From Vicinamibacteraceae bacterium (GTDB lineage Bacteria > Planctomycetota > Phycisphaerae > Phycisphaerales > UBA5793), in NCBI GenBank assembly GCA_011525805.1, contig WYBR01000030.1, forward strand, positions 1-64,000: a DNA stretch of 64,000 bases, in the 5' to 3' direction. Position 1 is the stretch's first letter, and every line of letters begins with the position of its first letter. The notes beneath the pieces are model-generated. The model was not told where the DNA came from and ran no database searches. It saw only the letters and a program-made list of their open reading frames with translations. A program made the position numbers and the translations under genes. This document shows, one piece after another, positions 58,377 to 64,000 of the stretch.

Positions 58377-59330
58377 ATGAAGCCAGCGCATCGGTTCTTT
58401 TGCCATTCCAGCGAGTGCATGGAGGATCTCGGGGACGCTGAGGTCGCCCTGACGATCACCTCTCCGCCCTACTGGAACGCGATCGACTACGACCGGCACA
58501 CCGCAGATCGTGGCCAGAATTACAGGACGCGTTCCTACGCAAATGGATTCAGCGGTTACGACGAGTACCTTGATCTGATGGATCGGGTCTTTCGGGAGGT
58601 GCTCCGGGTGACGAAGCCCGGGGGATTCTGCGCCGTCGTAATCGGCACCGTGCTCTTCAAGGCCAAGCCCGTTCCCGTTCCATTTGATTTCACATATCAG
58701 ATGGGGAGTGCGGGCTGGGAGTTTCACCAAGACATCATCTGGCACAAATGTACGGCAGGGGTGAAGCGAGCCGGAGTGACCATTCAGAAGCCGTTTCCTG
58801 GCTATTACTACCCAAACATCATGACGGAGTACATTCTGGTGTTTCGCCGGCCGGGGCCGCGAATCAGCGATGATCGAACGAAACGGGAGGTTCAGAGCGG
58901 CGCTTTTCCAATCAACGCACTCTTCACGAAGGATCTGGCCAACAACATCTGGCACATTGCGCCTGTCCCTCCGGGGCATCTCGATCATCCCTGTCCGTTT
59001 CCTGAAGAGATTCCTTACCGTCTGGCCACACTCTATTCCTACCCCGATGACCTCGTTCTCGATCCATTCCTGGGTTCAGGACAGACGACAAAGGTGGCCG
59101 CTCAGATCGGGAGGCGCGTGGTCGGCTACGACGTCGAGAAACAGTACGTCGACTACGCGAAACGCCGGTTGCGAGAGCCGCTGGCGATTCGACCCCAGCA
59201 GTTAATCGCCGCGTTCGAAAAGATCGCGATCGACGCGCCGCTGAGCGGTCCGGGTCGTCGAAACGGCGCGTCGCACGGCAGGCGACGCCACCGGTCAAGC
59301 ACGAAGCAGGAGACGCTCTTTGCCGAGTGA
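58377..59330 (+). CDS. beta-class DNA methyltransferase, SPPY type
   Basis: This 317-residue enzyme has TSPPYWN (28-34) as catalytic motif IV near the N-terminus and LDPFLGSGQT (228-237) as SAM-binding motif I near the C-terminus, the beta-class order. SPPY is typical of N4-cytosine methyltransferases, but N6-adenine cannot be excluded. The GAGGAGCGGGA region precedes the ATG. It overlaps the next gene by 11 nt. GC content is lower than in adjacent genes by eye, and the C-terminal 40 residues are basic and variable. The recognition sequence is not predictable. Confidence 0.9.
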   Translation: MKPAHRFFCHSSECMEDLGDAEVALTITSPPYWNAIDYDRHTADRGQNYRTRSYANGFSGYDEYLDLMDRVFREVLRVTKPGGFCAVVIGTVLFKAKPVPVPFDFTYQMGSAGWEFHQDIIWHKCTAGVKRAGVTIQKPFPGYYYPNIMTEYILVFRRPGPRISDDRTKREVQSGAFPINALFTKDLANNIWHIAPVPPGHLDHPCPFPEEIPYRLATLYSYPDDLVLDPFLGSGQTTKVAAQIGRRVVGYDVEKQYVDYAKRRLREPLAIRPQQLIAAFEKIAIDAPLSGPGRRNGASHGRRRHRSSTKQETLFAE

Positions 59331-60552
59331 TCGCGCTGACCCCGTCGCTCGAAGCACTGCGCTGCTGGCCGCCGTTGCAAGCGTGGGGCGCAAGTTTCCG
59401 GCGAGTCCTCAAGCCTCACTCGTTGACCCCTTTCGGCCCTACTTCGATTCCCGTACGAAGAATCTGTTTGTTTCCGAGCTGGACCGGCGCGACGGCGGCG
59501 TTACGCGCCGTGAAGCGATCCTCAGGTTTCTTCTGCTCTCCGCCGTCGTCGATCAGGGGCCGGACATCGAGGGCGTGCGCGATCTGGTCGTGCGAGTGGT
59601 CAACGACCTCTACTCGCGCGAAGTTCGTCTCTTTCACCGGCCCGGCGACTTCTTTCAGCACTTCGGCATAGCAGTCGATTCGATCGAGTCGATGCACGAG
59701 ATCGTGAAGGCGCTGCACGCTGCTCGCTGGGCCGAATCCAATAGGAGCCTCGCCAGCAAGTACCTCCTTTACATGGAGAATGCTAAACAAACACTCGGCT
59801 ACGCCGTGTATCGCTGGGGCGCCCCGCTCGCACTCGCTCACCTGTTGCATCAGCAGGCCGAGTCGGAAGGGCGCGATCCCTCGGACGCCCTCCTGCAATA
59901 CCTGCGAGAGCAGCATGGCGGATTCCCGCCGTCAACCGAAGGCGTGACGAAGCGAATCAAAGACCACCCGAAACTCGGACTCGGCAAGGCGATCGGCGAC
60001 AAGGCAGCACATCTCTTCGGGAAATGGGCCATCCACGCCTACCCGCTGCTCACCCGTGCGGACGATCCAGCGTGGGATGCCTGGTCATACGAGGTGCCCT
60101 TCGACAGCAATGCGGGGCGCGTGCTGTACCGCACCGGGTTCCTCACAACCTGGCTCGATGACAAGGTGATGCGACGAGCACAGGTGCTTCAGGCGGGGAA
60201 GGGCAAGGAAGCGGGGACGGACTATATGCGGGTCACGAACCTGCGCGGCCTTGCCAGCGCGGCGGCCGCGGTGAATCCGTTTCTCGTGGACACGAACACC
60301 AAACTGTGCGTCAACCACCTTCGCACCCACAGGAAGCGACCCACTAAGGTGGAGATTCAACGACTCCCTTCGATCCTGTCTCTTCGCAGCAGGAGGACTT
60401 TCACCCCTGGCCAGATCGACGACGGCCTGATCAAGATCGGTACGACCTGGTGCTTCAATACAGCCGCTCCCGACTGCGCACACTGCCCCGTGCGAACACA
60501 CTGTGCCGGAGCGACCCGACAGCCCGCGCTCATCACAAAGGTGCGCACCTGA
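59320..60552 (+). CDS. HhH-GPD-superfamily iron-sulfur protein, putative DNA glycosylase
   Basis: A TTG at 59320, after GCAGGAGA, gives 410 residues. The C-terminus has Cys378, Cys386, Cys389 and Cys395 (C-X7-C-X2-C-X5-C), close to the C-X6-C-X2-C-X5-C cluster loop of endonuclease III and MutY. A GLGKAIGDKAAHLFGKW segment (220-236) resembles the helix-hairpin-helix, and FDSNAGRVLYRTGF (261-274) resembles the catalytic-Asp strand (VDTHV.RV..R), giving Asp262 as candidate nucleophile partner. An extra N-terminal helical domain (about 1-190) precedes it. It overlaps the methyltransferase gene by 11 nt, so the pair is one translational unit. Base excision or restriction of unmodified DNA is inference. 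Low-homology alternatives include a plain repair enzyme. Confidence 0.72.
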   Translation: MPSDRADPVARSTALLAAVASVGRKFPASPQASLVDPFRPYFDSRTKNLFVSELDRRDGGVTRREAILRFLLLSAVVDQGPDIEGVRDLVVRVVNDLYSREVRLFHRPGDFFQHFGIAVDSIESMHEIVKALHAARWAESNRSLASKYLLYMENAKQTLGYAVYRWGAPLALAHLLHQQAESEGRDPSDALLQYLREQHGGFPPSTEGVTKRIKDHPKLGLGKAIGDKAAHLFGKWAIHAYPLLTRADDPAWDAWSYEVPFDSNAGRVLYRTGFLTTWLDDKVMRRAQVLQAGKGKEAGTDYMRVTNLRGLASAAAAVNPFLVDTNTKLCVNHLRTHRKRPTKVEIQRLPSILSLRSRRTFTPGQIDDGLIKIGTTWCFNTAAPDCAHCPVRTHCAGATRQPALITKVRT

Positions 60553-60635: not shown

Positions 60636-62216
60636 CTACGGCCTGACAACTTTGAGTTCCATCACGTTGCTCGTGATCGGACCGCGCTGCGGATGGTTCA
60701 CGTCCAGCGTCTGGATCCACGCCGTGGACTCCGGCGCCCGGAGCGGCACGGCGACGACGAAGCGCGCAAAGCCGTCCGGCTCCGTCACCGCTTCGCCCAC
60801 GCGCAGGATCGGCGTCGCCAGGTCGATGCAGATGCCCAGTCGCGGCACAAAGGTGCAGCCGATCCCCGCGCGCGTGGCAAGGAGATGGATCGTGCGCCCG
60901 ACCTCACCGCCGAAGACTTCGAAGCGGGCTGGCTGGCCGGCGACAACCAGATAGCGAGGGGACTCTGATGGTCGGTCAAGATGCATCAGCAGGCGCCCGC
61001 CGCTCTCGATCGCGACGTTTCCCCCTCCGGGGAACTGTTCAATCTGACCGAAGACGAAGTCACCCAGACCGTCTCCGTTCACATCGCCCATCGCGATTTC
61101 TGATCCGGAAAACTGGTCCCTTATCTCCACGATGAAGCGGTGGTTGATGATCCGTGCCGAGAGGGGATCGTAGACCAAGACAATGCGCGCACCGCCGATG
61201 ATCGCTTCGGCGTTCCCGTCGCCGGTTACGTCGGCAAGCGCCAAGTGAATGCCGAACAGATTGGCCGGCTGCTGCGAATCCTGGTAGAGGTAGGTGGTTA
61301 CCACTTCACCCGTGGCGCCGGAGAGCAGGTAGGCGCGATGAGGCGGCAGGCTCGACACGTTTCCGCTCACGATGAAGTCCGGCGAGTCGTCCCCGGTCAC
61401 GTCTACGCCCGCAGTGATTTGGGACCCGAAGTCACGGTCCCCCGGATCAGGCGCCTGTAGTTCGTGGATGATGGAGCCATCGAGTCCCGAAAGGAGCAGA
61501 AACCCGCCGCTGCCGCCGCGATCATCCCGAGTTCCGATTGCGATGTCATCGTGGCCGTCACGATCGACGTCGCCTGCGGGGCGCAGGCGATGCGCCCAAT
61601 CGACGTGGAGCCGACGGATCTCGTCGCCATCGCGCCCCGATCGAATCGAGACGTACCCGTTCGCACCCCAGGCCGCGATGAACGCAAAGTCGGGATGCTC
61701 ATCACCGTTCTGGTCGCCGACGCCCGACACGCCGCGTCCAAGTCGATCCGACGGAGTTTCGCCTCGATAGGAGAAAAGTCGATCGCCCGTTCGACCGCTG
61801 AAGACATCAACTCCGCCCCGATAGTCGGAGAGGGTGGGCCGTCCCAGCATCACTTCATCGCACCCGTCGCCGTCAAGGTCGCCAACGAAGGCGCCCGAGA
61901 AGGACCAGCGCGCCGGACCGGGTTCCGTCCCCACTCCACTCCACATGAGCGTGCGATCGCGGCCGGAGTACATGTGCCAGCGGCCGAGGATGACGCCATT
62001 CTCTTCCGCGCCGTCGTCGATGACGAAGATGTCGTCGGCCCCGTCGTTGTCGGCATCGCCCCCGCTCACCACCCGCGAGCCGAAGTAGCGACTCTCCGGC
62101 GGCGCCTCGATCTGGGCCGGCAGGCCGTTCTGGGCCAGCGACGAGGCCGCGAAGGCGGCAGTGAGAATCGCGATGATCGACTCTGCGAAGCAGACGCTGC
62201 AGCGCGATCGGCACAT
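60636..62216 (-). CDS. secreted FG-GAP repeat (integrin-like propeller) protein
   Basis: The ATG at 62216 follows AAGGAGCACCGTC and gives 526 residues with a signal peptide ending near SSLAQ. The body has about seven FG-GAP-type repeats (D.D.DG.DD and GDV.GDG patterns, e.g. VGDLDGDGCDEVMLG and AGDVDRDGHDDIAIG), each with acidic loops that bind calcium in this family. The C-terminal domain (about 410-526) has two spaced Cys (GIGCTFVPRLGICIDL) and ends GPITSNVMELKVV. It resembles the next gene and faces the same way. Surface role unknown. Confidence 0.88.
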   Translation of the reverse strand: MCRSRCSVCFAESIIAILTAAFAASSLAQNGLPAQIEAPPESRYFGSRVVSGGDADNDGADDIFVIDDGAEENGVILGRWHMYSGRDRTLMWSGVGTEPGPARWSFSGAFVGDLDGDGCDEVMLGRPTLSDYRGGVDVFSGRTGDRLFSYRGETPSDRLGRGVSGVGDQNGDEHPDFAFIAAWGANGYVSIRSGRDGDEIRRLHVDWAHRLRPAGDVDRDGHDDIAIGTRDDRGGSGGFLLLSGLDGSIIHELQAPDPGDRDFGSQITAGVDVTGDDSPDFIVSGNVSSLPPHRAYLLSGATGEVVTTYLYQDSQQPANLFGIHLALADVTGDGNAEAIIGGARIVLVYDPLSARIINHRFIVEIRDQFSGSEIAMGDVNGDGLGDFVFGQIEQFPGGGNVAIESGGRLLMHLDRPSESPRYLVVAGQPARFEVFGGEVGRTIHLLATRAGIGCTFVPRLGICIDLATPILRVGEAVTEPDGFARFVVAVPLRAPESTAWIQTLDVNHPQRGPITSNVMELKVVRP

Positions 62217-62495
62217 GACGGTGCTCCTTCCATGTGGTGGACCGATTCCGGTCCCGGCACCACCGGCGCGGCGGGCAATCCGGGATGCGCTCATCAATCC
62301 GGATGGGTTGGCCTGTGCGAGGCCAACCCCCAACGCGGCCCTGCGGCGGGGCGTGATCGCCCGCAGCCTCGGCCTGCCGGCCATTCTACAGGTTGTGGCG
62401 CGGGCCGCAAGAGACAATTTGCCCGTTTTGCGAAAAAAGCCGCATCACCGCCCCGCCCGGAAGCCCGCGGACCGCCGCCGGGGCCTGAATCCTCC

Positions 62496-64000
62496 TCAAT
62501 CAACGATCTCCACCAGCATGACGTTGCTCGTGATCGGGCCGCGTGCGGGGTCGGCGGGGTCGATGGCCTGGAGCCACAGCGGGCCGGCGGGCACGCGCGG
62601 GCCGACTTCGAGGGAGAGTTCGGCGAAGCCTTGGCTGTTGGTGAGTGACTCGCCGAGGCGGTAGATGCGCGGGTCGAGGTCGATGCAGACTCCGAGGCGC
62701 TGGATGAACGTACAGCCGTGGCCCGTCAGCGAGGCAAGGAAGTGGACGCGCCGACCGGGCTGCGCGCCGTGGACGAAGAAGGCGTACTTGGAGCCGCGGA
62801 CCAGGTAGTGGCTGTGATGAACATTCGAGAGGCTCAGCAGGAGCGGCGCTCCGCCATAGAGGGCGACTTCTCCGGAGCGAAGCGGGGCGAAGAGGTCGGT
62901 GAAGTGATCGCCGTTGAAGGAGCCGGTGCTGAACTCGTTGCCATAGTAGACGCCGGTGCTGAATCCTGCCGCGTGCCACTGGATAAGCCGCCCCGTGGAA
63001 GACTCGTAGACACCGACGCCGCCCGCCTCGGCAATCAACGCTTCAAACGCGCCGTCGCCGTTCATGTCGCCGAACTCGACGCGGACGCCGAAGATTCCAA
63101 AGGGCTGGTTTCCGCGCGGATCGTACATGGTGTTGACGATCTCCAGAGTCGCGCCTGAAATGACGTAGACCACCCGCTGCGTCCAGTTTACATGACTTCC
63201 GACCAGCAGGTCCGACACGTGATCGCCCGTCACGTCAGCTCCACCGGCCAGGGCGTAGCCGAATCCGTCCTCTCGCCATCCCCCGGGCGAGCGGATGATC
63301 CTCACCTCGCCCGTGCGGCCGGAGACGATGCTGATGTGAGGGTCATTGCTGTAGCGAAAGGCGCTGATCACGACGTCGTCGTGCCCGTCGCCGTCGATGT
63401 CGCCCAGCCCCCTGATACGTCGGGGAATGATCTGCTCGATCAGGTGCAGTTCGCTGCCATCGCGGCCGGAGCGGATTGAAACCAAGCCCTCTTCCCAGTG
63501 CCGCGCTACGAAGGCGAAATCGGGCATCCCATCGGCGTTCACGTCGCCGACGCCCGCGACATCGATCCCCACGCGGTAGTACTGATCGCCGTCGAATCGG
63601 TGCAGCACGGCGCCCGTGCGGCCGGAGTACACGATGGCCGCGCCGTACGACTCGGAAGCGGTCGGCGTGCCGACGATGAGATCATCCCCGCTATCGCCGT
63701 CGATGTCGCCGATGAACGCGGCGGGAATGCTGAAGGCGAATAGCCCCTCGGGGTAACCGAGAGAGGCCTCGCCCACGGCGCGCCACATCTCCTCGCGCGT
63801 CGCCCCGTCGTAGACGAACCAGCGGCCGACGCGCACGCCGTCCACCTCGAAGCCGGGGTCGCTGATGAAGAGGTCATCGACGCCGTCGCCGTTCGCGTCG
63901 CCCCCGCTCGCCACGCTGCGGCCGAACTGCACCGACCCGGGCGGCGGGTCGATGAGGTGCGGCAGGCCGCGCTGCGCCAGCGCTCGCGCCGGCAGCACGG
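62496..64000 (-). CDS. secreted FG-GAP repeat protein, 5' end beyond the window
   Basis: About 500 residues are visible. The open frame runs off the right edge, so the signal peptide and start lie outside; an in-frame GTG at 63998 is probably not the true start. It has FG-GAP repeats (e.g. IGDIDGDSGDDLIVG, LGDIDGDGHDDVVIS) and the same C-terminal domain as its neighbour, with GHGCTFIQRLGVCIDL and GPITSNVM. The two are probable paralogs from tandem duplication; the gap between them is 279 nt. Confidence 0.88.
   Translation of the reverse strand, partial: VLPARALAQRGLPHLIDPPPGSVQFGRSVASGGDANGDGVDDLFISDPGFEVDGVRVGRWFVYDGATREEMWRAVGEASLGYPEGLFAFSIPAAFIGDIDGDSGDDLIVGTPTASESYGAAIVYSGRTGAVLHRFDGDQYYRVGIDVAGVGDVNADGMPDFAFVARHWEEGLVSIRSGRDGSELHLIEQIIPRRIRGLGDIDGDGHDDVVISAFRYSNDPHISIVSGRTGEVRIIRSPGGWREDGFGYALAGGADVTGDHVSDLLVGSHVNWTQRVVYVISGATLEIVNTMYDPRGNQPFGIFGVRVEFGDMNGDGAFEALIAEAGGVGVYESSTGRLIQWHAAGFSTGVYYGNEFSTGSFNGDHFTDLFAPLRSGEVALYGGAPLLLSLSNVHHSHYLVRGSKYAFFVHGAQPGRRVHFLASLTGHGCTFIQRLGVCIDLDPRIYRLGESLTNSQGFAELSLEVGPRVPAGPLWLQAIDPADPARGPITSNVMLVEIVD

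Follow-up and report, generated by a model that had tools for sequence, protein, structure and literature searches.

What does a DNA methyltransferase do with a partner that resembles a DNA-repair glycosylase and whose gene overlaps its own? The question is raised by a gene pair on the + strand of the window (the whole stretch of 64,000 nucleotides that was analyzed). The pair consists of an amino-methyltransferase gene (58377-59330) followed by the gene for a 410-aa protein (59320-60552), which we propose, from its modeled structure, to be a restriction glycosylase/AP lyase of the HhH-GPD iron-sulfur type. An initial annotation had described both open reading frames and their 11-nt overlap, and these were borne out in the sequence. 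The second gene begins with TTG, and the sequence suggests a Shine-Dalgarno-like AGGAG (59308-59312, + strand) inside the 3' end of the methyltransferase gene, 7 nt 5' of this start.

The pair is flanked by a thioredoxin-reductase-like gene on one side and by FG-GAP-type proteins on the other; the latter are tandem FG-GAP-like repeat proteins (593 and 500 aa; 60636-63998, - strand) directly behind the operon. No nuclease gene adjoins the pair in the window, in keeping with the annotation's remark that no ordinary restriction nuclease lies nearby. The lower GC content that had been judged by eye is real: the operon has 60.8% GC, compared with 66.6% for the window, and GC3 is 0.70 and 0.74 for the two genes as against 0.90-0.92 in two adjoining genes. 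The pair was not found in four same-genus genomes. Together, the base composition and this absence are consistent with horizontal acquisition.

Two predicted activities in one operon

The product of the first gene (317 aa) matches PF01555 (N6_N4_Mtase, E 6.3e-38) and carries the motif TSPPYW, with motif IV before motif I (beta order). The catalytic motif IV, S-P-P-Y, occupies residues 29-32 (58461-58472, + strand), so the protein is the SPPY DNA methyltransferase that it had been called, and it would be the modification arm of the pair. PADLOC models of Type II methyltransferases also match it (best score 199 bits), and it is 52-67% identical to the partner methyltransferases at 13 other loci. 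Enzymes that make m4C usually carry S-PP-Y and those that make m6A usually carry D/N-PP-Y/F; by this signature the methyltransferase of the window is of m4C type. Among the annotated plasmid relatives searched for its specificity, none exceeded 60% identity.

The 410-aa protein has no Pfam match at E up to 1 and no PADLOC match. Its only family-level similarity to repair enzymes in sequence lies at the C-terminal end: TIGR01084 (mutY) matches residues 315-400, the Fe-S part only (E 2.9e-5), and hhalign of the family profile against EndoIII, run without secondary structure, reached significance only by way of the Fe-S loop. AlphaFold2, given an alignment of 37 family members, returned an essentially all-helical model with a pLDDT of 93.9 and a pTM of 0.92 (with a 4-sequence alignment the pLDDT was 41). 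In VIA-align comparisons, the model matched EndoIII (1orn, Z 13.6, rmsd 3.3, 210 of 214 residues aligned), an EndoIII-type structure (2abk, Z 12.8, 208 of 211 residues), the T:G glycosylase MIG (1kea, Z 12.3, 213 of 217 residues), MutY (Z about 12) and ROS1 (7yho, Z 11.7). Sequence identity in the alignments with EndoIII/MutY-type enzymes was 12-18%. Foldseek also ranked EndoIII and MutY at the top, but weakly (best E 0.02).

These matches cover residues 8-410 of the model, with insertions, and we predict with high confidence that the protein has an EndoIII/MutY-type HhH-GPD fold over its whole length. The fold proposed in the initial annotation is thus supported by structure prediction. The extra N-terminal domain of 190 residues that it had added is not: matches to EndoIII run from model residue 8 to 403, and because the fold spans the whole chain, the supposed domain is the first half of the fold plus insertions. 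Kinship with the DUF2419 queuosine glycosidase was also considered (VIA-align Z 14.2) and set aside, as no sequence similarity appeared in the tests run; judging from the model, the two probably share an ancestral fold. We know of no methyltransferase link for DUF2419.

Residue conservation was read from an alignment of 37 homologs. The four-cysteine cluster loop noticed at the outset (C378, C386, C389 and C395; 60451-60504, + strand) is well kept, each cysteine being present in 33-35 of the 37 rows, and several of the rows that lack them are truncated or broken genes. Its spacing, C-x7-C-x2-C-x5-C, is one residue longer than in EndoIII/MutY, and one homolog (L010) matches EndIII_4Fe-2S (E 0.0035). 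The helix-hairpin-helix-like segment is likewise present, as GLGKAIGDKAAHL; its hairpin is degenerate, with GKAIG in place of LPGVG. Together with the helix that follows it, this motif (GLGKAIGDKAAHLFGKW) spans 59974-60039 (+ strand). It carries K228 (codon 60001-60003), which is invariant in all 37 rows, stands within GKAIGDKAAHL and starts the helix modeled at residues 226-240; by motif and predicted helix start, its position resembles that of K120 in EndoIII.

The catalytic aspartate had been placed on a VDTHV-like strand. That strand reads VDTN (60286-60297, + strand), and only 9 of the 37 rows have D at residue 324. The invariant aspartate is D262 (codon 60103-60105), within VPFDSNAGRV (60094-60123, + strand), at the N-cap position just before a predicted helix (263-271). 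D262, N264 and R267, each invariant in 37 of 37 rows, match the D-x-N-x-x-R-V of MutY; the MutY encoded in L003, for instance, reads VDGNVERV. The EndoIII sequences compared read RKTANVVL...VDTHVKR. On the strength of these two comparisons we take K228 and D262 as the proposed catalytic pair, and the motifs and predicted helices make it likely that they are that of a bifunctional glycosylase. A further motif is specific to the family: RVTNLR (residues 304-309; 60229-60246, + strand) lies in an insertion, is invariant across the family alignment as RVTNxR (R304, T306, N307 and R309), and is a candidate for sequence recognition.

A constant effector with changing methyltransferases

We used the conserved 54-residue core of the glycosylase to scan 84,980 genomes and found 42 homologous loci. 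Bearers occur in Chloroflexota, Planctomycetota, Pseudomonadota, Nitrospinota, Omnitrophota, Elusimicrobiota, Bacteroidota/Ignavibacteria, Acidobacteriota, Bacillota and several candidate phyla, and, among archaea, in Helarchaeota, Altiarchaeales, Nitrososphaerota, Thermoplasmata, Halorubrum and Methanocaldococcaceae (some of these taxon names are those of metagenome bins). The family is rare. It was present in 1 of 392 genomes of a phylum sample, where two other matches, outside the order, were ordinary MutY. Within the order it was present in 4 of 301 genomes, with one further match (G395) that is short and MutY-like. It also occurred in 2 of 41 genomes of the family of G664 (Thermanaerothrix) and in 1 of 60 genomes of the class of G662. 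Searches of phages, plasmids and IMG/VR found no homologs.

The initial annotation had suggested surveying whether homologs neighbor methyltransferases. An amino-methyltransferase gene adjoins the glycosylase gene in 42 of 42 loci (for a few broken genes it is merely near), and this linkage was not selected for, since the search used the glycosylase alone. The methyltransferase lies upstream in 39 loci, in 37 of these on the same strand, and the two genes mostly overlap or are separated by less than 70 bp. The partners at all loci other than the window carry the amino-methyltransferase motifs PP[YFW]. By inspection of the 42 loci no third gene recurs, and the other neighbors vary from locus to locus.

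Some loci have features of their own. Two cassettes (L009:5042-13697 and L008:54-6153) stand beside phage head genes, including one for a fused head-protease protein (phrog_4523, E 1.6e-77), and L009 also has a reverse transcriptase (phrog_1423); these are probable prophages that carry the methyltransferase-glycosylase system, one of them with a retroelement. Directly behind their glycosylase genes lies a 249-aa open reading frame (FDLKGSVNWDMKAKA; L009:7596-8345, - strand, and L008:5407-6156, + strand), 97% identical between the two and absent at other loci. It has no Pfam or PHROG match and a weak match to PADLOC REase_II (E 0.064). We rejected it as a core nuclease because of this weak match and its restriction to two near-identical prophage-like loci; its sequence would allow a nuclease or an accessory protein. 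In Halorubrum yunnanense (L023:4919-7114, - strand), two different amino-methyltransferases, one with permuted motif order, stand beside a glycosylase gene that is split across two contigs (a contig end or an insertion).

The partner methyltransferases fall into six groups by identity, representing at least five classes, with S-PP-Y and D-PP-F/Y enzymes both present. TSPPYWNAIDY enzymes number 14, including that of the window; TDPPF/Y enzymes form two distinct groups, of 19 and 4 members; FSPPYDGIRDY has 4 members and TSPPYFDAKMY one. A permuted SPPY type is found at L049 and as the second methyltransferase of the Halorubrum locus. At L012-L015, the glycosylases are 60% identical to that of the window while the methyltransferases are only 25% identical, whereas at L017 the glycosylase is 57% and the methyltransferase 67% identical, and the methyltransferase faces the opposite way. 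Mapped onto the glycosylase tree, the partners switch class at least 8 times, and between S-PP and D-PP at least 5 times. If the effector stays constant while the methyltransferase chemistry changes, the recognized site should hold both an A and a C. AGCT holds both, so either chemistry could protect it.

AGCT depletion and its possible causes

We compared observed and expected tetramer counts under a maximal-order Markov model. Median O/E for AGCT was 0.35 in the 42 system loci; the 76 control units, taken from genomes without the system, had a median of 0.98 (p 1.5e-12, the loci not being fully independent). Pooled over the 42 loci it was 0.42. Avoidance of a site by its host supports an R-M role, although not every R-M system need show it. 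AGCT was the top outlier of 136 tetramers, at 0.18 in 12 bearers compared with 0.80 in 20 control sets, followed by CTAG (0.33 and 0.58). Within clades the pattern was similar, with the proviso that each clade offers few bearers and that other R-M systems are present in most hosts. G000, the genome of the window, had 0.23 and same-genus genomes without the system 0.55 and 0.47; planctomycete control loci were at 1.00. G662, in the Dehalococcoidia, had 0.05, as against 1.05 in Dehalococcoidia control loci. Values for G664 and G668 were 0.14 and 0.09, and in the Anaerolineaceae two bearers had 0.14 and 0.10, compared with a median of 0.80 (range 0.45-1.23) in 16 non-bearers.

Depletion extends over partner classes (0.29, 0.22, 0.09, 0.40 and 0.37), with three small classes at 0.70-0.89. 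There was little of it at three D-PP-F-G loci (0.79-0.94), at L029 (1.1) and at L049 (0.84). With some of the rarer methyltransferase classes, then, AGCT is perhaps not the target, or the genes are recent there. Other sites are also depleted in some hosts. In G662 (L133-L152), which has 26 PF01555 matches, many palindromes are scarce, for instance ACGCGT (0.06), TGCGCA (0.10) and CATG (0.35). TCGA is strongly depleted (0-0.07) in the Chloroflexota bearers L016, L018 and L022, which points to an additional R-M specificity there.

Taking linkage, predicted fold and site avoidance together, we consider it probable that the pair is a two-gene R-M system in which the methyltransferase marks AGCT and the HhH-GPD glycosylase restricts AGCT that is unmarked. 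The idea of a glycosylase as restriction arm, raised in the initial annotation, has thus gained support. The outward pattern of the pair is like that of the PabI family, and from this we infer AGCT as the methylated site, base excision with a lyase step, and a block by methylation. The methyltransferase would mark AGCT sites of the host, as m4C in the window if its S-PP-Y signature is a guide. The glycosylase would recognize AGCT without the mark, flip out a base and excise it. Probably bifunctional, given the kept Lys and Asp, it would then cut the abasic site or leave it to host AP endonucleases, and such damage on the two strands of the palindrome would leave incoming DNA broken. Where other hosts pair the glycosylase with S-PP-Y or D-PP-F/Y enzymes, methylation of either A or C could block it. 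As to the excised base, there is a hint of adenine in the MutY-like D-x-N-x-x-R-V and a hint of cytosine in the excess of C>T around AGCT. The spectrum also shows a slight excess of A>T, both excesses being relative to a simulation of unbiased loss, and is compatible with either base.

The depletion could partly stem from the mutability of methylated sites or from other systems. That it is altogether unrelated to the pair, and due to other R-M systems, lineage bias or the mutability of methylated AGCT, is unlikely in our view; in that case AGCT would no longer point to the target, but linkage and fold would still stand. Such an explanation would account for the sister genomes without the system at 0.47-0.55 and for the several bearers that are also depleted in GGCC, GATC or CATG. 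It fits poorly with the lead of AGCT over every other tetramer across independent clades and methyltransferase classes. Nor does it suit G664, which has 3 PF01555 genes (G668 has 6) and, like G668, no PF00145 gene, leaving few other methyltransferases that could explain its depletion. Slightly less probable still is that the glycosylase repairs side effects of the methyltransferase, as Mig.MthI and Vsr do, by removing deamination mispairs at methylated sites. In its favor are the shared fold, the precedent of MIG and the placing of the gene in an operon with a methyltransferase. However, precedents of the Mig/Vsr type serve m5C enzymes, whereas all partners here are amino-methyltransferases, and for the deamination products at amino-methylated sites (uracil and hypoxanthine) general repair enzymes exist. 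Under repair, AGCT should persist and AGTT should disappear. The counts run the other way: AGCT is depleted and AGTT/AACT is enriched 1.18-1.31-fold, where simulated unbiased loss of AGCT gives 1.02-1.07. Moreover, the lesions to be expected with m4C-type and m6A-type partners differ, yet a single glycosylase family serves both. On these grounds repair is disfavored, as the initial annotation had anticipated for deamination.

A restriction effector of another chemistry, which binds or nicks AGCT and uses the Fe-S fold only for DNA recognition, would agree with the large family-specific insertions and RVTNxR, which are unlike repair glycosylases, and with the degenerate hairpin. Against it speak the Lys and Asp that all 37 sequences keep where a bifunctional glycosylase would be expected to have them, and we rate it as improbable, marginally below repair. 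A writer paired with an eraser, in which the glycosylase removes a methylated base as a regulator or acts on foreign methylated DNA, is very improbable. Plant ROS1/DME do remove m5C, and ROS1 is among the structural matches, but such an enzyme would attack the product of its own partner in the host genome, and each swap between S-PP-Y and D-PP-F on one glycosylase clade would call for a new base specificity.

Relation to known systems

Restriction by base excision is known from the PabI family (R.PabI, R.CcoLI and HpyAXII), whose members excise a base from unmethylated GTAC and have AP lyase activity; their long-term hosts avoid GTAC, and reviews of restriction glycosylases list the PabI/HALFPIPE family only (PMC10273834). 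Our search of the open-access literature turned up no description of a restriction enzyme with the HhH-GPD fold. The pair described here resembles the PabI/HALFPIPE systems in its proposed excision at unmethylated palindromic tetramers with AP lyase activity, its methyltransferase partner and the avoidance of the proposed site. It differs in the fold of the 410-aa protein, modeled as all-helical HhH-GPD with an Fe-S loop and EndoIII/MutY-like over its whole length, in its proposed site (AGCT, not GTAC), in its at least five classes of partner methyltransferase and in its far broader distribution, which takes in Chloroflexota, Planctomycetota and archaea. On balance we favor a second, independent origin of base-excision restriction, in which an EndoIII/MutY-type enzyme became an AGCT restriction glycosylase and its methyltransferase was swapped freely between m4C and m6A types. 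If so, base-excision restriction has had at least two origins and is more than a curiosity of Helicobacter and Pyrococcus, and a widespread family built on the commonest DNA-repair fold would tie repair enzymes directly to immunity. With its effector conserved and its methyltransferase chemistry exchanged, the family would be a clean natural experiment in R-M evolution, and the enzyme could serve as a tool that places abasic sites at AGCT.

With repair enzymes of the EndoIII/MutY/OGG type the protein shares the predicted fold, the Fe-S loop, the bifunctional-type Lys and Asp and the D-x-N-x-x-R-V of MutY. Its length of about 400 aa with insertions, its degenerate hairpin, its C-x7-C spacing and its obligate methyltransferase neighbor set it apart, and the genome of the window also has an ordinary EndoIII. 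Mig.MthI (1kea) is likewise an HhH-GPD Fe-S protein beside an R-M methyltransferase (its position as given in the initial annotation). Unlike the present family, it accompanies an m5C enzyme and acts in mismatch repair; here the partners are amino-methyltransferases and the site is depleted, not preserved.

Methylation of AGCT as m4C is known from M.Mma5219II and from EMGBD3_00670 of the Thaumarchaeota BD3, recorded as "RM system: No" (PMC6329791). Such methylation thus exists in uncultured prokaryotes, without a recognized restriction partner. Base excision as phage defense would be shared with Brig1, Brig2 and Brig3, anti-phage glycosylases whose targets are hypermodified phage bases; no methyltransferase partner is mentioned in their description (PMC13160076). 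They differ from the family described here in these hypermodified targets and, for Brig3, in belonging to the uracil-DNA-glycosylase superfamily (PMC13160076).
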